27,706 nucleotides of DNA from a virus: positions 1-27,706 of IMG/VR virus record IMGVR_UViG_3300009425_000073; one strand, written 5' to 3'. The notes below the pieces were generated by a model that saw only the letters and a list, made by a program, of their open reading frames with translations, made no database searches and was not told where the DNA came from. The translations under genes and the position numbers were made by a program. This document shows, piece after piece, positions 6,599 through 27,556 of the stretch (the stretch's first letter is position 1; each line of letters opens with the position of its first letter).

Positions 6599-6649
6599 CT
6601 ATCAAGTAAGGGTACACTAACCAGTCTGCTTATATATGCCATATTTAGA

Positions 6650-6676: not shown

Positions 6677-6685
6677 TTACGATTT

Positions 6686-7620: not shown

Positions 7621-7641
7621 GCCTCAATACAAACCTCAGAA

Positions 7642-7666: not shown

Positions 7667-7696
7667 CTTATCCCCCGAAGTAAATCAGGACATATT

Positions 7697-8722
7697 ATGC
7701 AGACCTTTTCCAATGGAACTGGCGTTCCTCTGTCCGTGGCTGTTTTTCTAGCAACGGATTACTACGACTATGTACCCAACGTTGTATCAGCTACGGCATT
7801 GATGCGGCCCATTAGACAGCAAGTGCTGCCAGCTAGAGTGCCATTAGACGCACCAGAACGCGTTATTGAAATAATGGGAACTGTTAAGTCTCGAATGGGC
7901 ACTGCTATTCACGACAGTGTTGAAAAGACCTGGACACAAGGCCACTACAAGAAGGCTATGTTAGGGCTAGGTTACCCACAAAAGATTATAGACAGGGTGG
8001 TAGTTAATCCTGGCTACACAAATGATCCTGCCACAGGTAACCCAGTAAAAGTAGAAGGTTCTCCTGAACTTGCAGCTGATGCTATTCCTGTTTATATGGA
8101 AATAAGGTCTTTTAAGGAGATTGGCGGCAAGACAATATCAGGCAAGTTTGACTTTGTAGCTGAAGGTAGGCTGGAAGACTTCAAGTCCACTTCTACATTT
8201 ACTTGGGTCAACGATACAAAGTCTGAAGATTACAAACTTCAAGGCAGCATTTACCGCTGGCTTAACCAAGACATTATTACGCAAGACCATATGGCTATTC
8301 AGTTTTTATTCACAGACTGGATGAAATACCGCACTACAGATAATAACTATCCAAGCCATCCCGTTAAGCAAATGACTTACCCGTTGATGAGTATTGATGA
8401 CACGGAGTATTACGTTCGATCAAAGCTTGAAATGTTTGATAGATACAAAGATTCAAACGAACAAGACATTCCTCAGTGCACTGATAAAGAATTGTGGCGC
8501 AAAGAGCCACAGTTCAAATATTACAAAAACCCTAATAAAACTTCACGCAGCACAAAAAACTTTACGTCATCTGCTGAAGCATACGCTCGCCTGTCAGCAG
8601 ACGGTGGAGTAGGGGTTGTTAAAGAAGTACCAGGCGAAGTAGTCGCTTGTAGATTCTGCCCGGCATTTTCAGTATGCACGCAGAAAGACACTTACCTTAT
8701 GGACGGGACACTTACTTTATGA
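7697..8722 (+). CDS. Cas4/RecB-like PD-(D/E)XK exonuclease with Fe-S cysteines
   Basis: A 341-residue nuclease, the first gene of the early operon, with CAGGA six bases before the ATG. The core shows H72 (TAIHDSVE), D152 (GKFDFVAEG), the E160-D161-x-K163 motif (LEDFKS) and the QxxxY motif Q182/Y186 (LQGSIYRW), the order found in RecB/Cas4-family nucleases. Four cysteines, C261 (IPQCTD) plus C318, C321 and C327 (ACRFCPAFSVC), are placed to hold a 4Fe-4S cluster as in Cas4 and AddB. It probably resects DNA ends for recombination with the downstream Sak4-like protein, SSB and RuvC. Its stop overlaps the next start (ATGA at 8719-8722). Polarity and exact substrate cannot be read from the sequence. 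Confidence 0.82.
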   Translation: MQTFSNGTGVPLSVAVFLATDYYDYVPNVVSATALMRPIRQQVLPARVPLDAPERVIEIMGTVKSRMGTAIHDSVEKTWTQGHYKKAMLGLGYPQKIIDRVVVNPGYTNDPATGNPVKVEGSPELAADAIPVYMEIRSFKEIGGKTISGKFDFVAEGRLEDFKSTSTFTWVNDTKSEDYKLQGSIYRWLNQDIITQDHMAIQFLFTDWMKYRTTDNNYPSHPVKQMTYPLMSIDDTEYYVRSKLEMFDRYKDSNEQDIPQCTDKELWRKEPQFKYYKNPNKTSRSTKNFTSSAEAYARLSADGGVGVVKEVPGEVVACRFCPAFSVCTQKDTYLMDGTLTL

Positions 8723-10878: not shown

Positions 10879-10889
10879 GCAATTTTTAT

Positions 10890-10908
10890 ATGTCCTCCGG
10901 ACATTTTT
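10890..10908 (+). terminator. Hairpin with T-run: intraoperon terminator or vRNAP-type hairpin promoter
   Basis: ATGTCC (10890-10895) and GGACAT (10899-10904) form a perfect six-base-pair stem around the three-base loop TCC, followed by TTTTT. It lies between the primase stop and the Sak4-like start. It looks like a short intrinsic terminator or attenuator. It also has the shape of an N4 vRNAP promoter: a 5-7 bp stem and a 3-nt loop whose centre is a purine on the template strand. Confidence 0.5.
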
Positions 10909-10931
10909 GTGACAAACACCAGGAGAAAAAT

Positions 10932-11666
10932 ATGTCAGGCAATAAACATATTGTACTGATTATGGGCCAGCCTAACTCAGGTAAGTCCACATCATTAATG
11001 AACATGAAAAACCAAGACCAAATGGTCTACCTAAACACTGATCTTAAGGCTTTGCCTTTTGCCGATAAATTTATGAAGAATATAGAAGTAGCTGACGCTG
11101 CGGACATCATTGGCTTTATTGATCAGATTGAGGCTGGAGATTGTGATGGCGCCGTGCTGGACACCATTACTTTTCTAATGTCGATGTATGAGCGGCAACA
11201 TGTAACTGGCGCAGTTGATGGCCTAAGAGCGTGGGGTGAGTACGGTAATTTCTACCGTAATTTTATACACGCAATTAAATCAGGCTCAAAAGATTACGCC
11301 ATTTTGGCTCATGAAGAAGTCGTTCATAACGAACAAACTATGCAGTTGGAATCTAGAGTGCCCATTAAAGGTGCTGTAGGCAAAATCGGTGTAGAAGCTG
11401 ACTTCACAACTATTTTGTCAACTAAGCAGATGCCACTAAATAAGTTGGCAGGAATAGAAAACAACTTACTAAATATCACTGATGAGGAAAAAGAAGACGG
11501 CTTTAAATACGTTTTCTGTACTCGCGTAACTAAAGACAGCGTTGGCCAGAAAATGCGTGCAGCTGTTGGTCTTTGGAATAGAAACGAACTCTATATCGAT
11601 AACGACTTAGAGCAAGTCTTTACTAGGTTGCGTGAGTATTACTCACCATTACAGGAAGCAGTATGA
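10932..11666 (+). CDS. Sak4-like RecA-fold ATPase
   Basis: A 244-residue P-loop ATPase. The start at 10932 is chosen because AGGAG sits directly before it, whereas an in-frame ATG at 10890 falls inside the hairpin and has no ribosome binding site. Walker A is MGQPNSGKST (residues 11-20) and Walker B is GAVLDT (D77). The length and single RecA-type core resemble Sak4-family phage recombinases, short RAD51-like proteins that anneal single strands with the help of an SSB, and it keeps that company here: nuclease, probable SSB and RuvC-like gene in the same operon. It could instead be a generic AAA phage ATPase with a replication role. The stop overlaps the next start (ATGA at 11663-11666). Confidence 0.68.
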   Translation: MSGNKHIVLIMGQPNSGKSTSLMNMKNQDQMVYLNTDLKALPFADKFMKNIEVADAADIIGFIDQIEAGDCDGAVLDTITFLMSMYERQHVTGAVDGLRAWGEYGNFYRNFIHAIKSGSKDYAILAHEEVVHNEQTMQLESRVPIKGAVGKIGVEADFTTILSTKQMPLNKLAGIENNLLNITDEEKEDGFKYVFCTRVTKDSVGQKMRAAVGLWNRNELYIDNDLEQVFTRLREYYSPLQEAV

Positions 11667-12184
11667 ATCCAGAGGAAGAAACACCTCATCAAAAAATGGT
11701 GTCTGAGTTAGCAAAACCAGGCGAAGAAGTTATTAAGACCTTGGATTTGGCTAATAAGATTTTATTACTCAATGCCTTACAGAAAGGAGTACATGCAGGT
11801 AACTATGTAGACACTGTTAAAAAACAAGTGATTTACAACAAGCCTCAAAGCTTTCCTGCTGTTATAGAAAGGTTGTTTTTCCCACGAGCAGAAAAAGAGT
11901 TTACTCCAGCACAAGGAGACCTAGCTCATATGTCTATGGGCATCTTAGGCGAAGCAGCAGAAGTAATGGCTGTTATCCAAGACCACATAGAAAAAGAAGA
12001 ACCTTTAGATGTCGATAACCTTATAGAAGAGCTCGGTGACATTGAGTTTTATCTGGAAGGACTTCGCCAGGCTATAGGTGTTAGCCGTCAAGAGATACTA
12101 GATACCAACATCGTTAAATTACGAAAGCGATATGAATCTGGTTACTCAGACCAAGCAGCACAAAACCGCGCTGATAAAGCGTAA
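11663..12184 (+). CDS. MazG-like nucleoside triphosphate pyrophosphohydrolase
   Basis: A 173-residue protein whose second half is an all-alpha NTP pyrophosphatase fold. The metal-binding residues follow the MazG pattern: E97 and E100 in LGEAAEVM, then E123 and D126 in IEELGD, and the helix continues with FYLEGLRQAIG and KLRKRYESGY, a common ending of this family. The family hydrolyses (d)NTPs to monophosphates and pyrophosphate. In phages, MazG-like enzymes are proposed to alter nucleotide pools or remove aberrant nucleotides during replication; an effect on ppGpp has been suggested but is disputed. Residues 1-85 are helical, variable and unassigned. It is coupled to the Sak4-like gene by a four-base overlap. 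Confidence 0.85.
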   Translation: MNPEEETPHQKMVSELAKPGEEVIKTLDLANKILLLNALQKGVHAGNYVDTVKKQVIYNKPQSFPAVIERLFFPRAEKEFTPAQGDLAHMSMGILGEAAEVMAVIQDHIEKEEPLDVDNLIEELGDIEFYLEGLRQAIGVSRQEILDTNIVKLRKRYESGYSDQAAQNRADKA

Positions 12185-12212
12185 ACAACTTTAATAATTA
12201 GGAGGGGCATAT

Positions 12213-12959
12213 ATGTCTCTAGCATCACTTCAAATGGATGATTCCGTTAATAATGAAACGGATTTTGTTCCAAAACGCGGGCTCTTAGAATCCGAAATTT
12301 ACACTTGTACAGTAAAAATGGCTTACATGAGCGAATCTTCAGGCGGAGCTAAAACTTTAAACCTGTCTTTAGAAACTGCTGATGGTCGTGTAGTTGATAA
12401 CAAAGTTTATCTAACTTCTGGCAGAGCTAAAGGCCAAAAGAACTATTCTGTTAGCAACAAAACAGGAGAAAGAAATTATCTTCAGGGCTTTAATTTAGGC
12501 AATAGCCTAGCGGCATTATCACTAGGACAACCAATTGGTAATGTAGAACTAGAAGATAAAGTGCTTAAGATTTGGGACAACGATCTTAAAGAAGAAGTAC
12601 CTACTACTGTTCCTGTATTTGCTGCTCTTTTGGGTCAGCCTATTGTTGCTGGTATTAAGCAAAAGATTGTAGACGCTGTAACCAACGTTGCAGCTGAAGG
12701 AGAACTTGCTCAATGGAAACCAAACGGCAAAGTGAAAGAAATAAATGAGTTTGATAAGTTTTTTAGAGCTTCAGACAACCTTACTACAGCTGAAATCTTA
12801 GCTGGCATTACCGAAGGTGATTATATTAATACCTGGCGTACTAATAATGCTGGTAAGACTATAGATGAGTCTACAGTACCTAGTGGAGCAACTCAGTCTG
12901 CAGCTGCCTTAAGTACTCCTGAGGCTGTTGCAAAGCCACAGCAAAGTATTTTCGGTTAA
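12213..12959 (+). CDS. Probable phage single-stranded DNA-binding protein
   Basis: A 248-residue protein preceded by a strong AGGAGG. Residues about 20-130 look like an OB-type beta barrel (SEIYTCTVKMAYM, AKTLNLSLETADG, VVDNKVYLTSG, a basic loop at RAKGQKNYSV, and NVELEDKVLKIW). The last 30 residues are flexible, rich in Ala/Ser/Thr/Pro, and end QQSIFG. SSBs typically end in a short hydrophobic peptide after a flexible tail; here the tail is not acidic. The position beside Sak4-like, nuclease and RuvC-like genes supports an SSB role in coating DNA and loading partners. The family is recognised only from pattern and context. The stop overlaps the next start (TAATG). Confidence 0.6.
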   Translation: MSLASLQMDDSVNNETDFVPKRGLLESEIYTCTVKMAYMSESSGGAKTLNLSLETADGRVVDNKVYLTSGRAKGQKNYSVSNKTGERNYLQGFNLGNSLAALSLGQPIGNVELEDKVLKIWDNDLKEEVPTTVPVFAALLGQPIVAGIKQKIVDAVTNVAAEGELAQWKPNGKVKEINEFDKFFRASDNLTTAEILAGITEGDYINTWRTNNAGKTIDESTVPSGATQSAAALSTPEAVAKPQQSIFG

Positions 12960-13558
12960 TGGCTATATTGGAGGTAGTCGGTTTCGACCCTTCATTGCGT
13001 AATTGGGGAATAGCTACAGGAGAGTACTGTTTAGACAACGCAAGACTTCAGATCACTGGACTCGCGGTCACCAAACCTGTCTTACCTAAAGGTAAGCAGG
13101 TTCGGCAAAACAGTAAAGACCTAGACGCTTCTTTCCAATTAGCAGAGGGAGCATTAAGCGCCGCCCAAGGCGCTGATGCGATCTTTGTTGAAGTTCCTGT
13201 AGGAAGTCAGAGTTCCCGTGCTATGGCCAGTTATGGCATGTGCAACGGAATACTTGGCGCTCTCAGGGCTTTCGGCATTCCCTTTTTTGAGGTTACACCT
13301 ACTGAAGTAAAGCTTATTTCAGTTGGGGATAAAAAAGCTACAAAGCAAGAGATGATTTCTTGGGCAACTAGCAAACATCCTGAAGCACCGTGGCCAACTA
13401 AAAAAGTAAAAGGAGGAGTATCTATAGTCGAAGGCACTGCTGAACACATGGCAGATGCTGTGGCAGCTATTTATGCCGGCTTAGCTACTTCTGAATTTAA
13501 ACAAGCGGCCCAACTAATGGGCCGAATAAGTAATGCGAGAAAAAATCCATGCAAATAA
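12959..13558 (+). CDS. RuvC-like Holliday junction resolvase
   Basis: A 199-residue RNase H-fold nuclease. The catalytic acids are visible in order: D10 in VVGFDPSLRNWG, E78 in IFVEVPVGS, and H163/D166 in EHMADAVAA. This is the RuvC layout in which metal-bound carboxylates cut four-way junctions symmetrically. It is slightly longer than E. coli RuvC (173 residues). Its likely task is to resolve junctions made during recombination and replication, perhaps before packaging. The start overlaps the SSB stop by one base, and its last ten bases overlap the following gene, so the three genes are tightly coupled. It could also act on other branched DNA, as some phage resolvases do. Confidence 0.85.
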   Translation: MAILEVVGFDPSLRNWGIATGEYCLDNARLQITGLAVTKPVLPKGKQVRQNSKDLDASFQLAEGALSAAQGADAIFVEVPVGSQSSRAMASYGMCNGILGALRAFGIPFFEVTPTEVKLISVGDKKATKQEMISWATSKHPEAPWPTKKVKGGVSIVEGTAEHMADAVAAIYAGLATSEFKQAAQLMGRISNARKNPCK

Positions 13559-14043: not shown

Positions 14044-14058
14044 GGGCCTTATTCTTCT
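14032..14058. terminator. Shared terminator hairpin between convergent operons
   Basis: GGCCC (14035-14039) pairs with GGGCC (14044-14048) around ATAA, extended by one GT and one AT pair and followed on the plus strand by TTATTCTT. On the minus strand the hairpin is followed by a pyrimidine-rich stretch, so it could work in both directions. It overlaps the end of the membrane protein gene and the stop of the giant virion protein. Confidence 0.6.
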
Positions 14059-17000
14059 GTAACAGTATCGTAGGCGCCAAGCGCAGCCTGGATAGTGATA
14101 GGCTGATCTAGCGCGTCAAGTATATCAAATGGCCCTGCACCAAAGTTTAATGGCGATTTGGCTAACGCAAAAGAATCCAAAACATCAGACACGGAAGTAT
14201 AATAATCCAGTCCTGAGAGAGCAGCTACTCTTAGCGGGTTGTCTCTCATGCGATTAATTATTACTGCCTGTATTCTTAGATAGTATTTTGTAAACCACAA
14301 CAAGCCCATGTCATTAAGATACTGTAATGGTTTAGAGGTCGGAACGTCATAATTAACAAACGCTGCTTTAGCTTCAATTAAAGCTGCTTCAGACGACATC
14401 GGATTAATGTTTCTTTCGGTTAAGTGCTTGTGTAGCACGTACCTAGATGTGAAGTCAGACATCATTGTTGCTTTATTAAGAAACTCATATATCCCGGTGC
14501 CATGCGCTAGTGTTAAAAACTTGGCTGCTTTTTTGACGTTAGGGTTAATCCAAGAAGTTTTGTCGTCTATAAACGTAGTAAGTTTGGATGAATAAGTATG
14601 TAAGTCATCCTCACCTACTTTAATATCTTCTACAATTGTTCCCCACATGCCGTTCTCCATTAACAAGTGTACGGCATTACTTTGCATTTCTTCCTCTAGC
14701 TCTATCATTTTTTGCCTAGCCGCTTGAGCTGCAGGGCCAGTTAAGTAAGAGAGCTCTACTTGTTTTTCTAAATCAAAATGCTCTTTGCGTATCTTTAAAT
14801 ACCTATTGGTAGCACGCCAGGCAACTGCTTTGTCTTTGAGAACGTTAACGAAAGGCACGCCATGTAATACTAACAAAGACGCATTACTAGTTTCGTTACC
14901 CATCAATGTAAATAAGTTTTTTATAACCAAGACATCTTTGATCATGCTAACAATCTCTTGCCAAACGTTTTCTGCTTGGACAAGCCTTAATGCCACCCTT
15001 TTGCCTATAAGCTTTGGTTTGTTTGTTTCATAGTTCCAGCCAACTGGAATGCTTTCTAATGCTGTAACCAATAAGCTTTCTGTAAAATTTCTATCTATTG
15101 GAGACTTATCAAACATGTCTCCTACACTAAACTTACGGTAACCCAGAGTTATGTTGTACATGTCATTTCTGACGTACATACCGTTTTGGCCAAACACTTT
15201 TCTGATGTAACGTTTTGTTTCATCAGGTAACACTCTGTACCGCTCTCGAACAACAGGGTCGTTGCTGGTTGCAGTAACGTAGATATACGCGCCAGAGTTA
15301 CCTAAGTAGTCGTTATCGTATTGAGCTTTTATAGCGTCTATAGCCGTTTCGGCTAAGCCAGTACTGTTTGATTTATCAAAGATAGAAGAAGCTATGGCTC
15401 CCATAACACGATCTACTCTATTGTCTCTTTCAAGGACAGAGTCTTTAGTAGTTTCTTGCATAAGGTAACGGTAGCCGGCAACTTTACCCTGGTCATTAAG
15501 AACAGGAGATAGGTAGCTGCCCTGGTAGTTAGCTAAGTTAAACGTGGTTCTTTGCTTAAACATAGCTCTGACTTTTGAGCGTTTACGATTAGTTATTTTG
15601 TCAATTTCTTGTTTGCTACCTGCATGTACAACGCCGTCGACAGCATCTACAACAGACCCGCTTAAGGTTGATCCTTTAGCTCGCTTACCAACATTTTGTA
15701 TTATGCCCATTACCCAAGGTGTAAGGCCCCTGTCACGTATCTTGTAGAGAGATTTGCCTCCTGAATTATCATCCGGGTCTTGACCCAGTTCTTGTTCACC
15801 AACTTTTACATAGCCAGCTGCTTCTAGTTCACTAGCTTTTGATGGGTCAGCAGATACTACTTGTATATAAGGATTGTAAGATTCTTTGGTGTAGCCCTTA
15901 ATCATAAGAGCGTCTTTACCTTCAAACAGTTTCGCTTTCGATTGCTCTTTTAATTCAGCGTGCAGCTTGATTAGAAAATCTATGCCGTTTTGCCCATTGC
16001 CTCTAGCGGCTTCATTACGCATTAAATCAGACGCTTCGTTTTTCTGCTCTCTGCTTGTGTGCTTCAAAGCATACAAAGTAGCTAAAGGGTCTATAATTTT
16101 TAGCGCAGCGTTAGCAGCTACATCAGCTTGATCTGTAATAATCTGTTCAGTGGCGTAAAGAAACGCAATGTTATGTGCGTTATGCATTAGGTTAGCTTCC
16201 ATCAGGTTGATACCCGTGGCCATCATTATTCCTAAACCTTCAGCACTGGTACTGTAGTAGTTATACGTCTCAGTACTATTTTCTTTTGCCAGTTGAGCTT
16301 CTAGTGCTGCTATTGCTCTGTTTAGTTCAACTGGATCACTAATTAACTGTTCTATCTCAGCCAGCGTAAAATCATCAACTAGACTAGAAACTTCCGTTTT
16401 AATAAAAGTTTTTGTTAAAGCTTCAGACTGCTTTTTATTGAGCTCACCTAGAAAAGCTGTAAGCGTTGCTGAGGCTGTATATTCTTTTAGCCTTTTTCTA
16501 TTTTGCTCGTGTTTATTACTCATATTAAGAAGAGAGTTAGAGATTTGTAAATCAGGGCGTCCATTAGTAATTTCGTTAATGAGCTCACGCTGAGCAGACA
16601 ATCTGACGCCAGAGTCTCTATCCAGTATCTTGTTAAAGTGTCTCATAACTTCTTCAGTCCGCTCACCAGCAACGGTGCTGACAAGTGAACCAAGCGCACT
16701 GACTACTTTGACTTTACTTCCTTGAACTAAACCTGAATCAGCTACAGCTATAACGCCCTGTTTTATGTCATCAGAGAGTTTTTTAGACGCTTGATCAAGA
16801 AGAGGCTCGGGCCTATCTTTTCGGCTTTCGATCTTCGACTTTTCTTTGTTTTCTATTGTTGCCAGATTAGTCGCTAACTGCATAATCCTTGTGGGCACAT
16901 TCTGATTTTGCTCGATTCCAGTAGCGAACCGTACATACATGTCCATTAACTTTTTAAAGAACAGCTCTAAAGCTTCTTTTACCGTTAAGCCTGCATACGT

Positions 17001-20000
17001 TTCGCTATTTTCTGGAATGCTGATTAATGCCAGTTGCTCAACCAAAGGCTGATAGGTAAGCGCTGCGGCAGCAAACTGGCTTAAATAATCGCTTTTATTG
17101 CCATCGTATTGAGTAGCGTCAAATATGATTGAGTGAACTCTTTCAGCTTGGCGCTTTTGATCGTTTGAAGCATTAGCCCAGTCACCGTCATAAAGTTTCT
17201 CGGCAGTAATCTGCTTTTTAGCCAGGTTGCGCAGCTTAGTTAGCTCATTCCGGTTAGTTACAGCTTCTCTCATACTCAGAGCGGCGCGTAGCGTAAGCTC
17301 TGCCGATTCAGCCACAAAAGCTTCTTGGTCAGTCATAAGCAATTCAGCAGACAATGCTGATGCAAATGGCCGAATACCTGAGGTTAAAGAGTTTAAAAAT
17401 ACATCTTCTGCTGTGACTGGCGCCGCTCTTTCAGCCGCTGGCTTCAGAGCGCCTGTATTCCCATATGCGGCTGATACAACAGCAGCTAATATAGATCGCA
17501 ATCGCATATCGTGAATGGGCGATATAGCTTCTGTGGAGTCCCTAGAGGCTAACGCTTCATACACTTGTCTAGTGTCAAATGTTCTAGGCGTGGTCTCTTC
17601 TATGAAAAGGTTTATGTCTCCTTGTTCAGCTGTTTTAATCTCTGCTGTTTGCTGGGTTAAAACCCCAACATTGTAAACCAGTACTCCCAGTCCATTACTC
17701 TGGTCTTCTTTCGCACTACCAAATATGATCGTACTTATAGCGTCAAAAAATCTCTTGAGCCCATTCTTTGCTGGCTCACTTGATCTATTTTGTTCCTCAA
17801 TAGGAAATGTGACTTTTGCCAGTATTTCCTGCTGAAACTGAGGGTTAGTCATGCCAAAGGCAACTAGCTCATCCACACTAGATAAAGCAAGAGTGTGTGC
17901 TTCAGACTCTATTTTGTTATCCACCATGTATTGCTGAGCACGTTCGCGTAACTGCTCAAGGTCTGCAACAGCCTCAACGATATGAAGCGGCATGCTGGTT
18001 TCGTCTTCTCGCGCTGCTTTTACAACTTCCGCTGTAGCAGCGTGAGATAACTCATGGAGTACAACTTCAGAAGTAACGCCGGGGCCTTCAAACTGAGGAC
18101 CGCGTATATAAATAGTGCGTACACCATTTCTGACAGAAAACATTCCTCGGGTAGTCATGCCAAAAGCAATTAACTCGTCCATGCTAGATAAAGCAAGAGC
18201 TGGAGTAATTAAAACTATTTTTGTATCACTTGGCGTAGTTTCGTAAATTCTTCTAAGTAGCTCTATTTGGAATTTGTTATAAGGGTTATTTTCGTAACTC
18301 TTAATTAAGTTAGCTAAAGGTTTTAACAAGCTTCCAATAGTGACGTTGTCGCCACTAAGCATAGCTACTAACTCTGGGTCACTATTATTAGTTCCATTGC
18401 CGACGACACCCCAAGGGGTCTCTTCCGGCAATGGCGTAGGAACAACAGGAGGAACTTTTTCTTCAGTTGTAGTTCCTTGTTTGGGCTTGTTATTTAATTC
18501 TTTTAATTGAGCATCAATTACAGCTTTGTTTTTAGCTGCTAATTCTCGTTGTTGGGCAGAAACTTCATAAGCTCCGCCAGGAAAAGAGTATTGATCAACT
18601 AAGCCAATCTGGCTTAAGTAGCCTAACTTACTAGACTCAGCTCTAAGTGCGAATCTGCGTACATTTTCCATGTAACGCATGTCTACAAATATATCGGGCT
18701 CGAATTCACTTTCAAGCGCCACATCACTTAATACAGCAGCTAGATCCCCATATGCTTGCTGGTCTTCAGACAAAGATTCTAAAAGGCCAAGTTCACCATC
18801 CATAGACCGCTGTAATGAATCAGCCAGCTCCATAGGCACCGAAAAATTAGCAAGCAAGTTAAAAGTATGTTTGTTTAATTCATTAGCGCCTTGTTTTATG
18901 TTGGATACGCCAAGACCGTGTGCGTCATGAATGTTTAATGCTTTCATTGTTCTAATAGCTAAAGTAGAAATTGCGCTATCTAATGCGTGAATCATTAAAA
19001 TAAACGGAGCCACGCCAGGATCAACAGACCCTCGTCGCCTACCTGTCACTGATAATTGGCTTAATGTGCCTTTGCGGTTTGTTTTAGTTCGCACGGTGGG
19101 CACTGGCATGCCAAAGCGAACACTTTGGAAGTAAGTTTGGCTATCTTCATCAGTGACATACTCAGATTGGTCAGCACGGATGCCTGCATCCAAATTCATA
19201 TCGCCTTTAGACAAGGGCGTATGCATAACAGGCACAAAGTTATGTTCTTTCAATAGCGTGTCTATTGCTGCTATATCCGTGTCTGTTAACTCCTGCAAAG
19301 GATTACCAGCAGAGTCTGTAGGCATAGTGCCTTTTTTAATTTTGCGAGCAACTTCCGCCGAGTAAAGAAATTGGTAAGCCGCGTCATACCTAAGCCAAGT
19401 AGCTGTAGCAGACTTATTCATTTCCGACCGTGATGCTTGAAAGCTTGCGAATTGTCTCTCCAACGCTGTTTTTATATGTTTGCCAGACTTATTATAAAAA
19501 CTCTCTCCAATCATTTTTACCTGGGCTGGTTTTAACACAGTAGATAAAGCTTCTTGCCCAGTTTTGAAATAGGGCAACGCATTTTGATCATCAAGTAACA
19601 CGTTAAGCCTATCTATTACATTTCGTGTGGCTTTTAGCGCTTCTTGCTCAGTGGTAGATGTATCATTAGAGATGTCTTGTATTTCTTGATAGAAACGCTC
19701 TTCGATGCCTGATGCAAGACTTTGTATTGCTTTTTCTAGGTTTGCGCCAAAGAACATCATTTGCACTGGCGTCTTAATCTCATTTCGATCTAATTTAAAT
19801 AAAGACCCCATATCGTCTTGTAGCTTTATCGCCGTTTTGTTTTGGTTAATTAAAAGCTTTGCGTTTTTTACAATGGTTTCATACAAGTCATCATTATTTG
19901 TATCGCTGATGTACTCAGCGTGACTAGTGTGTGGGCTGCTAGTGCCAAACATGCCGAACTTTTCACCAAGCAGTGAGTTAACCGCCCCCATCATAATAAG

Positions 20001-23000
20001 CGAAAGGGCAGGGCCATTAGTGACCCCGTCGACTTCAAATAACATTTCTGTTGTAAAAGAAGTTTTTTCTTCTGTGGCATTAAGGTAAGCAAGCCAATTG
20101 ACTAGTGCATCTAAGGTATGCGTGTTTTCTCCGCCGACTTTAAGGTTGTTGTTGTTGTACTTGACCTTAATGCCTTGAGTCACAGCAATAATTGCGTTTT
20201 CTTCGGGCTCAGGTAACTTAGTACCAGGCTCTATAGAGTCTATTAATGCTAATGCGTCTAATGCGTCTTGCACTTCTTCACTAGCCATAAGCGCGTTAAG
20301 TTGTGCGATAGACCTTTCAGGGTTTTGTTTATCAACTTTAAGGCCCATACCTTGGGCAATAGCCAATTTAAAATTGCGCAACAAAGCATTATCAACAGTT
20401 GGGTCTACTTCTACACCCCAGGCATTCATTGTTACGTTGTGACGATGCTGCTTGTTAGTTTGCGTATTAATGGTGTTAGAGCTTTGCCCGGTCCTTTGGT
20501 GTTTCCAAATTACAGGAACAGTAAAAAAATCTTCGAGACCGACTTGTTCGTCAAACTCTTTAAGAGCTGTGTTGCCTCTTTCTAACTCTTCGTTTCTAGA
20601 CTCTTGTGGGATTTTAATACCGTCATGCCAGTTTTGACCGCTATTTAGATCAACCCAGCCGGTAACTTGCAACTGACCAATATCACTTAAACTGTCACGC
20701 ACCCGCTTCATATCCTGGCGGATACTATGCGGGCGCTTGCTAACTAACTTAGCAATTTTTTGCTGTGTCTTAGGTACTAGTTGCTTAATTTTAGTTTTGA
20801 GCTGGTTAAACATACCTGGCTTAAGCGCAGGAGGAACGATTTTTTCCTCTACAGACATTAGCTGGTTTAGAAATCTGTCCCCTAAACGAGAGGCAACAAC
20901 AATCTCTTCATTAGCTTGAATAGGTATTGTGCCGTTTCTAGTAGCTTTAACGTAAAGAGAGGGAGGATTAAAATCATTGTTTTCATCTGTTTGCTCTGCC
21001 TGCTCAAGAAAAGCTAATGACTCTGAAGTAAGCGCTATCTCAGCAGTTTGCTGTGTAAGTCCCATTTGTTGAAGCAGAGCAAACGCGTGGGCGCCCATTG
21101 CTAACTCAAATTTAGCCAGCTCATCTATAGGCACATTTTTATGCGTAGTCATTTCTAAAGCTTGGCGAACTTTTTCGCCTAAGTCTTGAATAACAAAGTC
21201 ACGCCTAGTGCCAACATGCGTAAAACGAATAATGTCTTGTGGGTCTACAGTGTCATCTTCTTTAAGCCCCAACATTTGCTTAATAACAGACAATGTATTG
21301 ATGCCTGTACCACCTGCATTTTCAGACAGCCACAAAAAAGCTCCTGTTGAAATAGCCGTTATCAGGTTTTCTGGCACAGCTCCTTTGAAATGCTGTGTGT
21401 AATCTTCATATTTAAAATCACGCTCAGGCGTTTTGGATGTTTTCTCGCGGAGTGTAGTAGCAGAATCATTGATATTCGTTTCAATGGTTTCTTTCCATTC
21501 TTCGTGCTTAGCACGAAACAACGTAAACAGGTCTATTTGGGCTGGAGTAAGCTTAGCGTTAGCTACAAAGCTTTCTAGCTTATCTAGATTTAACGCGTTT
21601 TCTTCGTACACCCATGACATAAAATCTTTCACGTAAACCAAAGGGTTTACTGATCCTGACTCTTCATCAGGCGAGCGCTGAGTAAAGTACGCTGCTATAA
21701 AGTTAGTAGAAGGTAAGGTTAATTGCTCGCCAGTCATGTTTCCTTCAACCCTACTATCGGGGTCTAAACCAGCTATCTCACCTTGATCAAAACTGTCTTC
21801 CTCTACGTTTTGTTCTTCTCCAAGGTCACTTTCAGGGGTTTCTTTCTGTCCAGCAGTTTCTTGGTCAACGTCCGTTTCTGTCTCGGTCTGTTCATCAGCT
21901 TGATCATTAACGTCCTCTGGTTGAGTTTCAGGATCTGCACGACCGGGCGTAACGGCTACGCCGTCCGCCTGGTCCGATTCTTTGGGCTGAGCGTCTGTAT
22001 TTTCAATGGGGTCAGGTGTTGAATTACTTTGAGTGTTGCCCATTAAAGCCAGGGCAGCTTTATGCTGCTCTACAGCTGCTTCTAAAATAGCGTTTTCTTC
22101 TGTGACTCTTTCTATAACGTTTCTAGTTCCATTGGGATTTTTAAAGTCCCAACCACCGTTCCTTTTTCTGTTCCAACCTTGGGGAGTTTCAGTGGCAATT
22201 CGCCAACCAGACGACTCGTTATTGTCACGAATAAGATGCGTTGTGGAGCTTGCTTTACCTTGAGTGGCCTCGAGTCCTGCTTCAAGACCAGCTTGTTTGC
22301 CCTTATGGTTTGCTAAAAAGCTCTCTAACGAAGCAATTTCTTTCTCTGCTTCTGGTATGTTTCCGTCACGCAGTGCTGCAGCAATATTAAGTTCATACTG
22401 AAGCACACCTTTGAAACCATTACGGCCATTTACTACGTCAGTATTTGTGGCATCAGTAGTGTTTAATTCATTTAACTTTGAGTGAGCCTCACTAAAATTA
22501 TTAACATAAGTTCTTTGCTCGCTTGTTAATAAAGGGCTTTGTTTAAGCGTTTCTACTTGCTCTGAGCTTACCGTGTCAAAACTGCTCATCATTAATTCAA
22601 TAATGTTATCAGCCGCCTTAACCTGAGTAGGGCTAGCGTCAGGTGATCCTGCTTCAGCGATCAATCCATCTACGTCTACATTACTTTGCCCAGTAACTCT
22701 AGAAACGCCCACCTCTCTATAAACAGACATCCTAGCGGAGATGTCTGGCGCTTCGTCTAATTGAAGTGCTAACGCATCCAGTCGCTTGTCTAGTTTCTGC
22801 TTTTCAACAGGATCAGTAGTGCTGTTGAACTCAGCTTCTAGTTGAGTCATTTCAACATTTAAAGCTTCAACGTTCTTGTTCTGTGTCTCAATAAGTTCGT
22901 CAATTTGAGTACGAAGCGCCGTGCGCTCTACTTCAGAAATAGCGGGATCACTTATTTTTGTGGCTAGTGCTTCAACAGCGTTTAAAGGACTGTATGTTTC

Positions 23001-25481
23001 TGGAGTGGATTCATCTAGTAACGGTTCAACATTACCGGTGACAGCCCCGTCTCGGGTGAGTTCAGTTAATTTTTTATCCTTTTTACTAATAGGTGCAGAA
23101 GGGCGCGTACTTCCTATGTTAGCTAACTCGCTAACAGCGGTACGAGTGGCAGTTAACGTTGAACCAGCCCCTATACCAATCATGTAGCCTTGAAAAATGT
23201 TAGCGCCGTCAAAATCTCTATTAAGTCTTGAAAAGTTCTCTTCGACTGCTGTTTGGTAAGCTTCAGTGGGCCCTTCTACAACAGCACCTCTTACTAGGGC
23301 TTTTCCAGTTCTGGTAATTGGATTATTAACAGTGGCAGCAACAACTCGTCCTGTTGTTGAAGCCGCTGCCGTTGTAACTGCGTCTAGTAATTTATTAGGC
23401 AATAATTTAGTTAACGTAGCGGCTGTATCTGCAGTGCCGCCTGGAATGCGTTTAAGCTGTTTTAAAATAGATAAATCTGCAACTTGCTCTAGTGCAGACG
23501 CAGATAAAGCCCAAGCAGCCATGTGCGCTGCTTCTTCTTGAGTAGGGCTTTTGCCATGCGTTTTTTTGTAATCTGTCAAAGCATCGCTATAAATGTCAGC
23601 GCCGTACGCAAAGTTAGTTACAAGCAAAGCCGGTCTACTAACTGCACCTATTGCGAGCTGAGGAATGTTTTCTGATATGTACTGAAAAGTTGCTGAAGGG
23701 TTATCTTGTAAATCGTCGATACCGTCCATGGTAAGGCCAATCACGCCTGTTGCAGCGCTCATTACAGCTTCGCCCAGGTCTCCCTGTGTGTACTGAATTT
23801 CAGCAGCAGCAAACGATTCTACAATTCCGCTCTGGTCAAACGTTCTATCAAGACTTTCGTGTAACAGTGCCTTATCTATTGGATTAACTAAGTCATTAAC
23901 AGGTTTGCCAATAAGACCTTCGGGTCCGACTATGTCAGAAATAGTGGCAGCTATTAGTTCATTTAAATACGTTCTTTTAAGTATATCTCTTCTAGTGCCC
24001 ATATTACGGCCATCAGAATCAGGTCTCGTGTCTAAATATGCGTTTTCGTTATCAGTAAGCGTATCTTTTGCAATTAAAGATCGTTCATACAAACGTATTG
24101 CGCGATCATCAACGCTGGCTCGACCAGAAGCAGCTCGTATCGTATAAGGCAAAGCAATTGCGTGCCCAGCAACTCGCAATGTACCAACTGCAAGGCTAGT
24201 TATACTTTGTTTAGTTGCCCCAATTTTAGTGGCCAGCTCTGCGTCAGACGCCCATGCTCTGCTCTCTCTTATTTTTTGTTCTTTAAAAGCTCTATCAATT
24301 GATGCCAGCCTTTCTGCCGTCTGTCTTTCCATAAAATAACGACTTGTATCAACGGAAGGCTGGCCATTAACAGCAACCCAATCACTTAAATTTGCGTAGT
24401 TTTGAACGTCTTTAGGATCATCAGATACTTGTGGATAAGCCACCGCTGCTGTCATTGGCGTTAATGACGTATTTCTATCTGTTGGCTCAGGGGTCTCTTT
24501 TTCAGCTTCACCTGCTATAAAGTCTTGAGCCCGTTTTGCGTCTACACCTGCTACTGCCGCTTCAAGCTGTTCTAAAGCTGTTTTTGTGGAAGCAACAGGT
24601 TCTTCTGTTTTTGTTTCTACTTCTACTTCTACTTCTGCAAGTTTAGGAGTTTCTTTTGGTGTCTGGTCTCCTGCAACATCGTAAACAGCTTCTTTTTGAG
24701 ACATAGCTGCTACAAGGTCTTCTGCATCACCTGAAGGATTATCAACAGATTCACGCGTTGTTTGATTAGGGTATTCCCCCACTAAACCGGGCACGCCTGG
24801 TTCACTGGCGCGTCTGATCGATGCAATGTTTGTTTCAGAAGGAGATGGTTCGGGAGTTGCTGATGCTTTGCCGATATTAAAAAATTCTTGGCCTTTAGTC
24901 CCATTTGCATCTTCATTATCTAAGCCGCGTGCAGTACCTGTAGCGCCTAGCAAATGAGCTGCTGTCGTATATCCAATTGCGTCAGCTTCTGACATATCTT
25001 CTGTGATAGTGCCATTGCCTATTAACCGCTTACGGTTAGCATCAAAGTTTTCTTGAAACAGCTGATCTTGTAAACCAGTGTTAGCTAAGAATGAAGCTAA
25101 ATCAGTAACGCCGCCTCTACCTGTCCAGTTATCAGGGTTATTCATTGCTGCGGCATTGCCTAGCGCTCCACTGCCAGGCTTTAGCATTCCTGTGTCTTCC
25201 AACGCCATTGCGCCAAACTGATAACCGCCCGCGTAATGAAGATCATTAATCGAGTTGTAGTTACCAGACGACTCTCTATTAAATATAGTAGTCGCTAAAG
25301 ACTGGCTAGCTGGACCAGAAGAGTTGGTCGATATAGGGGTAAGAGGCGGAGCGCTTTCTTTTACAAAGTCAGGTATGACTCTATCTATAGCCTCTTGTTT
25401 TACAGAAGAGAGGCTCGACAGCAAATTCTGCTTGAACGCAGCTGCCGCCCCAACAAGCTCCGTTTTGAGGTTTGTAGCCAT
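14049..25481 (-). CDS. Giant virion protein: transglycosylase-like domain, N4-type virion RNA polymerase and metallopeptidase
   Basis: A 3,810-residue protein read as one frame. Residues about 60-205: transglycosylase-like domain (E70 in NRESSGNY, YAGGYQFGAMALEDTG). Residues about 430-790: hydrophobic segments and EGPTEAYQ, as in ejected virion proteins. Residues about 1160-1235: acidic linker. Residues about 1240-2340: single-subunit RNA polymerase related to N4 vRNAP, with degenerate TxxGR (R1663 in KHQR, then INTQ), motif A D1818 (FEVDGVTNG), motif B R1899/K1903/F1911 (RNEIKTPVQMMFFG) and motif C D2186 (NIHDAHG). H2476-E-L-S-H2480 marks a polyvalent-protein-type metallopeptidase. The C-terminal 1,300 residues are unassigned. 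N4 vRNAP is about 3,500 residues. It is the third gene after gp14- and gp15-like genes, the place of T7 gp16. I infer that it is packaged, ejected and transcribes early genes. Confidence 0.85.
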   Translation of the reverse strand: MATNLKTELVGAAAAFKQNLLSSLSSVKQEAIDRVIPDFVKESAPPLTPISTNSSGPASQSLATTIFNRESSGNYNSINDLHYAGGYQFGAMALEDTGMLKPGSGALGNAAAMNNPDNWTGRGGVTDLASFLANTGLQDQLFQENFDANRKRLIGNGTITEDMSEADAIGYTTAAHLLGATGTARGLDNEDANGTKGQEFFNIGKASATPEPSPSETNIASIRRASEPGVPGLVGEYPNQTTRESVDNPSGDAEDLVAAMSQKEAVYDVAGDQTPKETPKLAEVEVEVETKTEEPVASTKTALEQLEAAVAGVDAKRAQDFIAGEAEKETPEPTDRNTSLTPMTAAVAYPQVSDDPKDVQNYANLSDWVAVNGQPSVDTSRYFMERQTAERLASIDRAFKEQKIRESRAWASDAELATKIGATKQSITSLAVGTLRVAGHAIALPYTIRAASGRASVDDRAIRLYERSLIAKDTLTDNENAYLDTRPDSDGRNMGTRRDILKRTYLNELIAATISDIVGPEGLIGKPVNDLVNPIDKALLHESLDRTFDQSGIVESFAAAEIQYTQGDLGEAVMSAATGVIGLTMDGIDDLQDNPSATFQYISENIPQLAIGAVSRPALLVTNFAYGADIYSDALTDYKKTHGKSPTQEEAAHMAAWALSASALEQVADLSILKQLKRIPGGTADTAATLTKLLPNKLLDAVTTAAASTTGRVVAATVNNPITRTGKALVRGAVVEGPTEAYQTAVEENFSRLNRDFDGANIFQGYMIGIGAGSTLTATRTAVSELANIGSTRPSAPISKKDKKLTELTRDGAVTGNVEPLLDESTPETYSPLNAVEALATKISDPAISEVERTALRTQIDELIETQNKNVEALNVEMTQLEAEFNSTTDPVEKQKLDKRLDALALQLDEAPDISARMSVYREVGVSRVTGQSNVDVDGLIAEAGSPDASPTQVKAADNIIELMMSSFDTVSSEQVETLKQSPLLTSEQRTYVNNFSEAHSKLNELNTTDATNTDVVNGRNGFKGVLQYELNIAAALRDGNIPEAEKEIASLESFLANHKGKQAGLEAGLEATQGKASSTTHLIRDNNESSGWRIATETPQGWNRKRNGGWDFKNPNGTRNVIERVTEENAILEAAVEQHKAALALMGNTQSNSTPDPIENTDAQPKESDQADGVAVTPGRADPETQPEDVNDQADEQTETETDVDQETAGQKETPESDLGEEQNVEEDSFDQGEIAGLDPDSRVEGNMTGEQLTLPSTNFIAAYFTQRSPDEESGSVNPLVYVKDFMSWVYEENALNLDKLESFVANAKLTPAQIDLFTLFRAKHEEWKETIETNINDSATTLREKTSKTPERDFKYEDYTQHFKGAVPENLITAISTGAFLWLSENAGGTGINTLSVIKQMLGLKEDDTVDPQDIIRFTHVGTRRDFVIQDLGEKVRQALEMTTHKNVPIDELAKFELAMGAHAFALLQQMGLTQQTAEIALTSESLAFLEQAEQTDENNDFNPPSLYVKATRNGTIPIQANEEIVVASRLGDRFLNQLMSVEEKIVPPALKPGMFNQLKTKIKQLVPKTQQKIAKLVSKRPHSIRQDMKRVRDSLSDIGQLQVTGWVDLNSGQNWHDGIKIPQESRNEELERGNTALKEFDEQVGLEDFFTVPVIWKHQRTGQSSNTINTQTNKQHRHNVTMNAWGVEVDPTVDNALLRNFKLAIAQGMGLKVDKQNPERSIAQLNALMASEEVQDALDALALIDSIEPGTKLPEPEENAIIAVTQGIKVKYNNNNLKVGGENTHTLDALVNWLAYLNATEEKTSFTTEMLFEVDGVTNGPALSLIMMGAVNSLLGEKFGMFGTSSPHTSHAEYISDTNNDDLYETIVKNAKLLINQNKTAIKLQDDMGSLFKLDRNEIKTPVQMMFFGANLEKAIQSLASGIEERFYQEIQDISNDTSTTEQEALKATRNVIDRLNVLLDDQNALPYFKTGQEALSTVLKPAQVKMIGESFYNKSGKHIKTALERQFASFQASRSEMNKSATATWLRYDAAYQFLYSAEVARKIKKGTMPTDSAGNPLQELTDTDIAAIDTLLKEHNFVPVMHTPLSKGDMNLDAGIRADQSEYVTDEDSQTYFQSVRFGMPVPTVRTKTNRKGTLSQLSVTGRRRGSVDPGVAPFILMIHALDSAISTLAIRTMKALNIHDAHGLGVSNIKQGANELNKHTFNLLANFSVPMELADSLQRSMDGELGLLESLSEDQQAYGDLAAVLSDVALESEFEPDIFVDMRYMENVRRFALRAESSKLGYLSQIGLVDQYSFPGGAYEVSAQQRELAAKNKAVIDAQLKELNNKPKQGTTTEEKVPPVVPTPLPEETPWGVVGNGTNNSDPELVAMLSGDNVTIGSLLKPLANLIKSYENNPYNKFQIELLRRIYETTPSDTKIVLITPALALSSMDELIAFGMTTRGMFSVRNGVRTIYIRGPQFEGPGVTSEVVLHELSHAATAEVVKAAREDETSMPLHIVEAVADLEQLRERAQQYMVDNKIESEAHTLALSSVDELVAFGMTNPQFQQEILAKVTFPIEEQNRSSEPAKNGLKRFFDAISTIIFGSAKEDQSNGLGVLVYNVGVLTQQTAEIKTAEQGDINLFIEETTPRTFDTRQVYEALASRDSTEAISPIHDMRLRSILAAVVSAAYGNTGALKPAAERAAPVTAEDVFLNSLTSGIRPFASALSAELLMTDQEAFVAESAELTLRAALSMREAVTNRNELTKLRNLAKKQITAEKLYDGDWANASNDQKRQAERVHSIIFDATQYDGNKSDYLSQFAAAALTYQPLVEQLALISIPENSETYAGLTVKEALELFFKKLMDMYVRFATGIEQNQNVPTRIMQLATNLATIENKEKSKIESRKDRPEPLLDQASKKLSDDIKQGVIAVADSGLVQGSKVKVVSALGSLVSTVAGERTEEVMRHFNKILDRDSGVRLSAQRELINEITNGRPDLQISNSLLNMSNKHEQNRKRLKEYTASATLTAFLGELNKKQSEALTKTFIKTEVSSLVDDFTLAEIEQLISDPVELNRAIAALEAQLAKENSTETYNYYSTSAEGLGIMMATGINLMEANLMHNAHNIAFLYATEQIITDQADVAANAALKIIDPLATLYALKHTSREQKNEASDLMRNEAARGNGQNGIDFLIKLHAELKEQSKAKLFEGKDALMIKGYTKESYNPYIQVVSADPSKASELEAAGYVKVGEQELGQDPDDNSGGKSLYKIRDRGLTPWVMGIIQNVGKRAKGSTLSGSVVDAVDGVVHAGSKQEIDKITNRKRSKVRAMFKQRTTFNLANYQGSYLSPVLNDQGKVAGYRYLMQETTKDSVLERDNRVDRVMGAIASSIFDKSNSTGLAETAIDAIKAQYDNDYLGNSGAYIYVTATSNDPVVRERYRVLPDETKRYIRKVFGQNGMYVRNDMYNITLGYRKFSVGDMFDKSPIDRNFTESLLVTALESIPVGWNYETNKPKLIGKRVALRLVQAENVWQEIVSMIKDVLVIKNLFTLMGNETSNASLLVLHGVPFVNVLKDKAVAWRATNRYLKIRKEHFDLEKQVELSYLTGPAAQAARQKMIELEEEMQSNAVHLLMENGMWGTIVEDIKVGEDDLHTYSSKLTTFIDDKTSWINPNVKKAAKFLTLAHGTGIYEFLNKATMMSDFTSRYVLHKHLTERNINPMSSEAALIEAKAAFVNYDVPTSKPLQYLNDMGLLWFTKYYLRIQAVIINRMRDNPLRVAALSGLDYYTSVSDVLDSFALAKSPLNFGAGPFDILDALDQPITIQAALGAYDTVTEE
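17848..17892 (-). repeat. Internal direct repeat in the giant gene, copy A
   Basis: A 45-nt segment matching 18154-18198 at 39 of 45 positions. It encodes LALSSVDELVAFGMT, part of the expected metallopeptidase tail followed by NPQFQQEIL. Confidence 0.7.
18154..18198 (-). repeat. Internal direct repeat in the giant gene, copy B
   Basis: The second copy, encoding LALSSMDELIAFGMT just before the HELSHA motif. It is 306 nt (102 codons) from copy A, so the frame is kept. Confidence 0.7.
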
Positions 25482-25493: not shown

Positions 25494-26978
25494 TTAAGAG
25501 TCTTTACGAGGTGGAACTTTAAGCCGATTTGCTGCCTCAACTAATTTTGTTGCGTCAACATTAGATTTTCTAAATGTGTCTAGCTTCTCTTGATAGGCTT
25601 TTGAAGGTTTCAGATTTGCTGTTTCTACTTGTGTGTCATAAGCCTTTTTGGCTGCAGTTCGAGTCGCTCTGGCGGTAATGTTTGACTGGTAACTATCTAG
25701 AAGTCTTTCCATTTCATTAGTTATACTTTCGATAGGTAAATCAGAAACAAAAGTAAACCTTCGTTCGTCTCCGTCCGGCGCAATTTCGCCTTGACCCGCC
25801 GGACCCATGGCTCCTAACGCTTTATAAAAAAGATTATCAATAACTGCTTCTGACTGCTCTTTACCAACACCAGCCTTAAAAGTTTTACGAATGTTTAGTA
25901 ACTCTTCGTTTAAGTTGTCTCCCGCTCCTGCAAAGGCTTCTTTGTCCCACCCCATCTCGTTAGCTAGCGTATTAATTTGTGGCATTCCAATAGCATCGTC
26001 AAAGCTAAACTCTTCGTTTACTTGGTTCATGCTTAAAACATCGTCATAGACGGCTTTAGCCCCGCTTAGTTCTTTGTCTTGAGTTACACGAGCGTCTGCT
26101 AAAACCATCTCAGATTGTTTTAACTGATCTTCGGTGATGCCAAAATTTTGCGCTAACTCAATACCAACACCATTTACCAGTTGTTGTCTGTCTTCTGCAG
26201 ACATCCCGGCAAAATCAGGACTGGCAATTAATTGCAGAGCTCGTGCTCTAGCCTGTTGTATGTTGGGGCGGTTGTTTTCGTCGAGCTCAGCAACTTTAAC
26301 AATTTCTCGCTGCGCCCTTTCCCTAAGATCCTTACTGTCCTGCGCTCTTTTATCGTCTGCTTTCTTTCGGTTATTTATTACTAGGTCACTTTCTGTTATT
26401 TGGCTTTCGTTAAACGATTTCCGTAGACCTTGCGTTAGCCCTAGTCTATTGAACTCCGTCTTGTTCTCCGTCATCAATTTTTCAAACGTTGCATCGTCAG
26501 CTGGAGTAGTACCCAGTTGAGCAGTAGCTAGTGCGTCTAACACAGGGCGTAATGCCAGCGTATCTTGGGTGTCTTCAAAGTTTTGCTGCTCTGTTTGAAA
26601 GCCTTGCTGCGCTGTTAAGAAATCTTGATCCGCAGTAAATCTGTCACGTATAGTGTTTTTGCGGTTTGTTACGCCGTCACGCAATACGCTTTGATCGGCT
26701 TGTGCACCGAAAGAGTCCGCCATGCGTTGTACGGCACCTGAGTTTACAGCCGCGTCTAGTTCTTCCTGAGTATTAAAGCCAGCCATCATGTCTTTAAAGG
26801 CATTAGTGTTGTTGTCTTTTACAATGTTGTAATTGTCTTGCTCGTTTTGCTCAATACCCTGAGCAACACCGGCTAGTCTGTCTAAGCCTCCTGTTATCGA
26901 GCTTTGCGCTCCACGCATTAAGTACGCAGCATCGTTATTGTTTTTACTGTTGACGTTTTTCCAAGTAATTACGCTCAA
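25494..26978 (-). CDS. Internal virion (ejection) protein, gp15-like
   Basis: A 494-residue protein, mostly alpha-helical, rich in Ala/Gln/Asn/Asp and without cysteine or membrane segments. It starts at TTG (26976-26978), overlapping the TGA of the upstream gene as TTGA; the first in-frame ATG would remove a WKNVN-type N terminus of a kind common in podovirus internal proteins. A central region (about 195-240, KKADDKRAQDSKDLRERAQ) is charged and helical. Length, composition and position between a small gp14-like protein and the giant enzyme-bearing protein match the second ejection protein of T7-like podoviruses, which helps build the conduit across the cell envelope. The assignment rests on context and composition; no enzymatic motif is visible. 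Confidence 0.7.
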   Translation of the reverse strand: MSVITWKNVNSKNNNDAAYLMRGAQSSITGGLDRLAGVAQGIEQNEQDNYNIVKDNNTNAFKDMMAGFNTQEELDAAVNSGAVQRMADSFGAQADQSVLRDGVTNRKNTIRDRFTADQDFLTAQQGFQTEQQNFEDTQDTLALRPVLDALATAQLGTTPADDATFEKLMTENKTEFNRLGLTQGLRKSFNESQITESDLVINNRKKADDKRAQDSKDLRERAQREIVKVAELDENNRPNIQQARARALQLIASPDFAGMSAEDRQQLVNGVGIELAQNFGITEDQLKQSEMVLADARVTQDKELSGAKAVYDDVLSMNQVNEEFSFDDAIGMPQINTLANEMGWDKEAFAGAGDNLNEELLNIRKTFKAGVGKEQSEAVIDNLFYKALGAMGPAGQGEIAPDGDERRFTFVSDLPIESITNEMERLLDSYQSNITARATRTAAKKAYDTQVETANLKPSKAYQEKLDTFRKSNVDATKLVEAANRLKVPPRKDS

Positions 26979-27556
26979 GCTGTGCGCTCCCTAACACTGT
27001 ACTGATTTATAACGTCCTCAGGCTTGTCATAAAAATCTGGGTTAGCAGAGTACTGAGATTTAGCAATGCCTGCTATTTGCTGATTAGTAATGTTCCGCTG
27101 CGCATCGTAGTTCAAACCAAATTCTTTTTTGCTTTGTTTAAAGGAATCTTTAGCTAAACCATATTGCTTCATGCCTAAATAGGCACTGGCAAGCCCAGTA
27201 AAAGTATTAAGCATGGGCATAAGAGCCCCACGATCTCGGGTGCCATCTTGGTTGTTTTTACCAAACAATATCTGTTTCCAATTACCTCTTGTATTGGCGT
27301 CTGAGCTATTTGACGAAGGGTCGCTAGGAAGAAAATCCTCCCCTTGACCGTAACCTCCCATCATTTCAGCAAATGTTTGTTGACCATCAGCCATTGTTTG
27401 TCGAAACTGAAACGCACCAGGGCTATTGTCTTGGTAACCTTGGTAACCTTGTAAACCTGTTCCGGCATACCCTGTATTTGGGTTGACTGACCAAGGAGGC
27501 GAAACGTTCATTCCCGGACGGCCGCTGCCGTAATTAAAATCATATTCATTTGTCAT
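26975..27556 (-). CDS. Internal virion protein, gp14-like
   Basis: A 193-residue protein. Residues 1-60 are Gly/Tyr/Asn/Pro-rich and flexible (YDFNYGSGRPGMNVSPPW, then a repeated QGYQGYQD). Residues about 108-170 form an amphipathic helical segment (LMPMLNTFTGLASAYLGMKQ, then QYGLAKDSFKQSKKEFGLNY and NITNQQIAGIAKSQ). This pattern, a Gly-rich start followed by a helix of the LASAYLGMKQYxLAKD type, resembles small internal core proteins of marine podoviruses, the counterpart of T7 gp14, which inserts in the outer membrane during DNA ejection. It is the first of three consecutive ejection-protein genes. It begins four bases after the stop of the preceding virion gene. Recognition is by pattern and gene order. 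Confidence 0.68.
   Translation of the reverse strand: MTNEYDFNYGSGRPGMNVSPPWSVNPNTGYAGTGLQGYQGYQDNSPGAFQFRQTMADGQQTFAEMMGGYGQGEDFLPSDPSSNSSDANTRGNWKQILFGKNNQDGTRDRGALMPMLNTFTGLASAYLGMKQYGLAKDSFKQSKKEFGLNYDAQRNITNQQIAGIAKSQYSANPDFYDKPEDVINQYSVRERTA

Follow-up and report, generated by a model that had tools for sequence, protein, structure and literature searches.

An N4-type virion RNA polymerase predicted in an integrase-encoding phage related to the Schitoviridae

Introduction

The described systems closest to the protein analyzed in this study include gp50, the virion RNA polymerase (vRNAP) of phage N4 (Schitoviridae; structures 2po4, 3c3l, and 9pnq). This study examined a giant open reading frame (ORF) on the minus strand of the virus record IMGVR_UViG_3300009425_000073, a linear fragment of 27,706 bases that was analyzed at its full length and is hereafter called the window. 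As judged from its sequence, the ORF is a Schitoviridae (N4-type) vRNAP. The phage that carries it is diverged but can still be recognized as belonging to a known virus family, and it does not constitute a new system; only the particular branch and the combination of features are new. The window protein shares with N4 gp50 the fold of the polymerase, the catalytic residues with a single exception, the C1 domain with its HExxH motif, the large C-terminal domain, and the lack of cysteine, and in both phages the vRNAP operon with gp51 and gp52 genes lies opposite the replication genes. It differs from N4 gp50 in a core identity of only approximately 18%, a phenylalanine in place of the motif B tyrosine, 26 fewer residues between motifs A and B, an extra N-terminal hydrolase-like domain, and a promoter-loop tryptophan that is not conserved.

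In gene layout and in the motif B phenylalanine, the cultured phages that come closest form the group of LUZ7, LIT1, PEV2, and DEV (Migulavirinae). Their vRNAPs differ from the window protein, with a core identity of 31-32% and an N-terminus without the hydrolase-like domain, and no integrase is annotated in these phages, unlike in the window phage. The vRNAP of Pseudoalteromonas phage pYD6-A (Fuhrmanvirinae) has the hydrolase-like N-terminal domain in common with the window protein (32% identity over residues 60-209), whereas its polymerase is located on another branch of the vRNAP tree; the domain was therefore probably gained or lost separately in the two lineages. Iyer et al. (2017, PMC5512222) described the polyvalent protein DR90_1081 of a Moraxella prophage, in which an N4-like RNA polymerase is joined to a zincin metallopeptidase and to a lysozyme/transglycosylase. 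By this published description, it resembles the window vRNAP in the fusion of polymerase, lysozyme, and metallopeptidase, but it carries an additional PBECR RNase domain (PMC5512222). A 2023 study reported N4-like proviruses together with 54 genomes that carry lysogeny genes (PMC10654107); likened by description, these integrase-encoding viruses share with the window phage an N4-like genome combined with lysogeny genes.

Identity of the giant protein

We scanned the giant protein against PHROG, and phrog_2206 ("virion RNA polymerase") matched residues 425-3794 (1605 bits, E = 0). The first-pass annotation of this DNA had described the polymerase as hidden, a description that did not hold because an ordinary family scan names the vRNAP directly. 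The best solved relative by sequence was the N4 vRNAP (11gp/9pnq, E 2e-54). A tblastn search with the polymerase core matched 344 phage records; among the matches listed, most carried the annotation virion RNA polymerase, came from N4-like phages, and were approximately 29% identical. Matches of this strength far exceed what chance would give. The overall layout fits an N4-type vRNAP, with a length of 3810 residues (approximately 3000-4000 in the family), a mid-protein polymerase, an HExxH motif, and a large C-terminal domain.

The structure of the core (residues 1240-2340) was predicted with AlphaFold2 by using 50 relatives, and the model had a mean predicted local distance difference test (pLDDT) score of 86.4 and a predicted template modeling score of 0.88. 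The Foldseek results revealed that ranks 1-10 were all N4 vRNAP entries of the Protein Data Bank (PDB; E 1e-25 to 3e-30, template modeling scores 0.69-0.71), followed by the mitochondrial and T7 RNA polymerases from E 4e-13. A profile of 51 sequences matched 2po4 (E 4.6e-59), and N4 structures were thus recovered by sequence, by profile, and by fold. The model contains a palm, in which D1818 (D579) stands at a strand end, K1903 (K664) in a helix, and D2186 (D947) in a turn between two strands, the places that motifs A, B, and C occupy in the N4 fold. On the basis of secondary structure and fold match, the catalytic residues are predicted to sit as they do in N4. The first-pass annotation had named a fold lacking a palm, or catalytic residues not gathered in one active site, as grounds for refutation, and its claim survived this check as far as secondary structure and fold match reach.

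Motifs A, B, and C were found at the residues given in the first-pass annotation, and the sequence IHALDSA begins at residue 2164. In an alignment with N4 and 13 other vRNAPs, D1818, R1899, K1903, F1911, and D2186 corresponded to D1556, R1663, K1667, Y1675, and D1948 of N4 gp50 (D559, R666, K670, Y678, and D951 in mini-vRNAP numbering); upstream, R1663 of the window protein aligned with N4 R1421 of the T/DxxGR motif. Both aspartates, the arginine, and the lysine of the catalytic set were invariant across 51 sequences. The motif spacing had also been stated correctly, at 283 residues from the lysine to motif C (281 in N4) and 85 from the motif A aspartate to the lysine (111 in N4). Among the 51 relatives, the A-to-B distance spans 85-121 residues, with the window vRNAP the shortest, and the B-to-C distance spans 255-296. 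The short distance of 85 therefore marks the lower limit of variation within the family and does not point to another layout.

The window vRNAP contains no cysteine in its 3810 residues, against approximately 23 expected from the other window proteins (31 in 5053 residues), and 14 further vRNAPs likewise contain none. The same absence was noted for LUZ7 and LIT1, where it was tied to the route that the protein takes through the tail and the periplasm (PMC3715699). Genes of the gp51 and gp52 ejection types adjoin the vRNAP gene (Table 1); the 494-residue protein in the gp51 position exhibited no significant similarity to N4 or LIT1. By analogy, the adjoining genes and the lack of cysteine support the earlier proposal of a packaged polymerase, and the vRNAP would be packaged and ejected.

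The family match, the N4 structure matches, and the aligned catalytic residues bear out an N4-type vRNAP with a T7-like palm. We consider it almost certain that the protein is the vRNAP of an integrase-encoding phage related to the Schitoviridae.

Table 1. Features of the window, with position, strand, and basis of assignment
Feature	Position	Strand	Basis
Tail fibre/J-like protein, LIT1 gp56-like, in LIT1 tail-cluster position	3456..5120	-	E 8e-44 to LIT1 tail56
Excisionase	5188..5463	+	PF06806 over cut-off; phrog_539
Tyrosine integrase	5346..6452	+	PF00589 66 bits; phrog_1 1e-48; YNARHT...LGH...Y motifs present
Serine resolvase/invertase	6686..7228	-	PF00239 133 bits; phrog_125
Exonuclease, N4 gp42-like	7697..8722	+	44% to N4 gp42; phrog_2139
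DNA primase, N4 gp43-like	8674..10878	+	43% to N4 gp43, 49% to LIT1; phrog_2135
Sak4-like, N4 gp44-like	10890..11666	+	37% to N4 gp44
MazG-like pyrophosphatase	11663..12184	+	phrog_229 8e-36
Single-strand DNA binding protein (SSB), N4 gp45-like	12213..12959	+	phrog_743; 27% to N4 gp45, 33% to LIT1
RuvC-like resolvase, N4 gp46-like	12959..13558	+	45% to N4 gp46; phrog_159
Giant virion RNA polymerase (N4 gp50 homologue, predicted), 3810 aa	14049..25481	-	Single open frame; phrog_2206; 11gp/9pnq; no cysteine
C-terminal domain (C2), best conserved part	14052..17411	-	phmmer domain 3 to N4 vRNAP, 169 bits
HELSHAA (HExxH), zincin-like C1 domain, residue 2476	18036..18056	-	HExxH aligned in most of 15 vRNAPs compared
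RNA polymerase core, residues 1240-2340	18462..21764	-	AlphaFold2 model, Foldseek, profile match to 2po4
Motif C, NIHDAHG from residue 2183, catalytic D2186	18915..18935	-	Aligned with N4; D invariant in 51 sequences
Motif B, R1899-x3-K1903-x7-F1911-G1912 (RNEIKTPVQMMFFG from 1899)	19746..19787	-	R and K invariant in 51 sequences
Motif A, FEVDGVTNG from residue 1815, catalytic D1818	20013..20039	-	D invariant in 51 sequences
Tail-lysozyme-like domain, predicted peptidoglycan hydrolase, residues 60-209	24855..25304	-	phrog_27932 match
gp51-position ejection protein, 494 aa, no cysteine	25494..26978	-	Position, length; weak sequence similarity to ORFs linked to vRNAP in relatives
gp52-like ejection protein, 193 aa, no cysteine	26975..27556	-	LIT1 gp52-like, E 4e-8

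Replication genes, integrase cassette, and affiliation

The exonuclease, primase, Sak4, SSB, and RuvC genes follow the order of N4 gp42-46, with a MazG gene inserted. The first-pass annotation had held that the replication genes were not N4-like; we withdrew this claim, because the five genes are 27-45% identical to N4 gp42-46 and stand in the same order. As in the Schitoviridae, this block adjoins and opposes the vRNAP-gp51-gp52 genes. The tail genes to its left match the tail cluster of LIT1, where they also lie just before the exonuclease. A cassette of excisionase (xis), integrase (int), and resolvase genes is inserted between the tail and replication genes; it is absent from LIT1 and from lytic N4, and it presumably gives the window phage a lysogenic option.

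A vRNAP tree was built with FastTree (local support) on the basis of the C-terminal domain C2. The window vRNAP grouped with eight uncultured records at a support of 98, and none of the cultured phages included in the tree belonged to this clade. Integrases were present in four clade records (L021, L023, L027, and L029) which, together with the window, make up five of the five records showing the site; in L021, the gene is found at the opposite side of the record and in the opposite strand. The clade records L020, L022, L032, and L040 break off either within the vRNAP gene or less than 6 kb past it and thus do not reach the integrase site. PF00589 matched in 18 of the 69 virus records searched, 16 of them above the cut-off. 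With the window, the N4-type vRNAPs gain a well-supported branch that is uncultured and bears integrases.

Several observations weigh against this affiliation and its functional reading. N4 W1126, which contacts the promoter loop, is not conserved in the window vRNAP, and the promoter sequence therefore probably differs from that of N4. The genes for a DNA polymerase, helicase, RNAPII, portal, capsid, and terminase, as well as early promoters, were not found in the 27.7-kb fragment, and the early region lies outside it. The hydrolase-like domain had no Pfam match above the cut-off, and its model was poor (pLDDT 51.5, too few sequences) and gave no significant fold match. Neither a repressor nor an att pair was found in the window, and lysogeny is a prediction from the genes present.

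The near-complete relative G007 (66.9 kb) exhibits the same order (tail-integrase-exonuclease-primase-Sak4-SSB-RuvC-vRNAP-gp51-gp52) and also encodes RNAP1, RNAP2, a helicase, a DNA polymerase, capsid and portal proteins, and a gp68 homologue; the absences in the window are therefore best explained by the ends of the fragment. We rejected a phage truly without DNA polymerase and RNAPII, because a fragment such as the window would not include these N4-type genes, which in LIT1 precede the tail cluster on its left side and in G007 are found elsewhere. A scan for hairpins with 3-nt loops revealed no clear excess in the window or in the early region of G007, and none or no clear excess in LIT1; an excess was found in N4 (6 versus 1.7 expected).

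The lack of a repressor, att pair, or host flank in the window would also suit a strictly lytic phage, like most cultured Schitoviridae, in which the cassette would be an insertion that is dead or merely transient, and the resolvase had no match in the five relatives that were read completely or for the most part. However, the integrase occupies the same site in the same orientation in L023, L027, and L029, its motifs are intact, an excisionase accompanies it, and N4-like proviruses have been published (PMC10654107). We thus consider a strictly lytic phage unlikely.

Motif B phenylalanine

The sugar-discriminating motif B tyrosine of T7 and N4 (N4 Y678) is replaced by F1911 in the window vRNAP. 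A phenylalanine occurs at this position in 41 of the 51 relatives and in LUZ7, LIT1, and Littlefix, indicating that the tyrosine is no family requirement. The matching Tyr-to-Phe change in T7 RNA polymerase relaxes sugar discrimination. This background and the wide occurrence of the phenylalanine could suggest a vRNAP that naturally accepts deoxynucleoside triphosphates (dNTPs) and may make mixed RNA/DNA products or primers. The phenylalanine is, however, a clade feature, and other residues may restore selectivity; the authors who noted it in LUZ7 and LIT1 in 2010 read it in the opposite direction, as possibly aiding discrimination against dNTPs (PMC3715699). A dNTP-permissive enzyme therefore appears distinctly improbable. 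The residue raises the question of whether a whole natural vRNAP clade discriminates sugars as N4 and T7 do.

N-terminal domain and proposed mechanism

Residues 60-209 matched the tail-lysozyme PHROG 27932 (E 8e-32) and were 34-38% identical to annotated tail lysozymes of rhizobial T4-like phages. Only 2 of 64 vRNAP N-termini, those of the window and pYD6-A, matched this family. In three phage relatives, the transglycosylase-like PF06737 matched at the same motif below the cut-off, and a profile of the N-terminal domain found nothing relevant in the PDB. The similarity to tail lysozymes suggests that the domain may cut peptidoglycan. According to a structural study of N4, ejection likely requires that peptidoglycan be cut, an activity that the N4 ejection proteins seemingly lack and that is presumably supplied in trans (PMC12633501); a candidate hydrolase domain fused to the vRNAP itself makes this question testable.

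Two podovirus-like records (L122 and L123) encode a 2495-residue giant protein that shares this N-terminal module but not the polymerase. The L122 protein (ORF 5058-12545) is cysteine-free, and its N-terminus is 50% identical to that of the window vRNAP over 259 residues; it gave no vRNAP match, and no vRNAP was found in the record. The sharing of an N-terminus with a different giant protein indicates that the module moves between giant ejection proteins. Such a polymerase-free relative would accord with a decayed or repurposed ejection protein that has kept the polymerase fold, lost transcription, and mainly serves envelope passage, a reading that is barely credible, because the N4 catalytic residues are kept except for the motif B tyrosine (phenylalanine, as in LUZ7 and LIT1), no stop interrupts the 3810 codons of the frame, and conservation of the core equals that in characterized relatives.

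By sequence and predicted structure, the T7-like single-subunit polymerase core lies between an N-terminal ejection region, which starts with the predicted hydrolase domain, and a large C-terminal region preceded by the HExxH motif. For an active N4-type vRNAP, we propose a mechanism in which every step is drawn from homology with N4 and DEV (PMC4496689, PMC10925440, PMC12633501). The packaged vRNAP would be ejected after the gp52- and gp51-type proteins and threaded with them through the envelope, its N-terminal region aiding passage through the wall and inner membrane and the hydrolase domain cutting the cell wall. The polymerase would then refold in the cytoplasm and begin early transcription at hairpins that gyrase extrudes from the DNA; this transcription would pull in the genome.

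Additional observations on the cassette and related records

A 17-nt inverted pair (5173-5189 and 7627-7643), in which 16 of 17 bases are complementary, brackets the xis-int-resolvase cassette. The left copy overlaps the start codon of xis or ends there, and approximately 50 nt separate the right copy from the exonuclease start that follows it. The cassette (5188-7228) could be an invertible unit that the serine recombinase flips, setting integrase expression, although we regard this as a long shot and know of no such inversion switch in the Schitoviridae. The sequence GGGGGCA occurs at 6455, 6466, 6658, and 6669, as two pairs just after the integrase, and has no other copies in the window; three of the four copies share the context GTGGGGGCAT. 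These copies are candidate att or arm sites; none were observed beside the integrase in G007, L027, or L029. A 16-bp inverted repeat, TTACTAGT(T)GAACGAT, whose loop measures approximately 90 nt, is located at approximately 7496-7620, in a 470-base non-coding stretch before the exonuclease, and has a DNA fold z-score of -2.4.

The closest full-length relative, G006 (L021, L100; 37,953 bases), begins with the start codon of an integrase, and its other end coincides with the start of another gene. Only a C-terminal fragment of a portal was matched, and no DNA polymerase, RNAPII, or gp68 homologue was found in it. We set aside a reduced 38-kb genome, since the ends lack a repeat and the portal is fragmentary; G006 may be a trimmed or incomplete record and is a candidate for a trimmed provirus or reduced element.

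In a 74,886-base contig from the assembly of the cultured strain Larsenimonas suaedae DSM 22428 (L016), the vRNAP gene is split over the two ends, and this phage-sized contig is therefore probably circular. Similar phage-sized contigs were observed in Vreelandella venusta and Acinetobacter sp. A47. A 126,998-base contig of a Burkholderiaceae metagenome-assembled genome (L018) carries a vRNAP gene together with a PF00589 integrase (974-1534); it exceeds the typical Schitoviridae genome length and is a possible integrated prophage.

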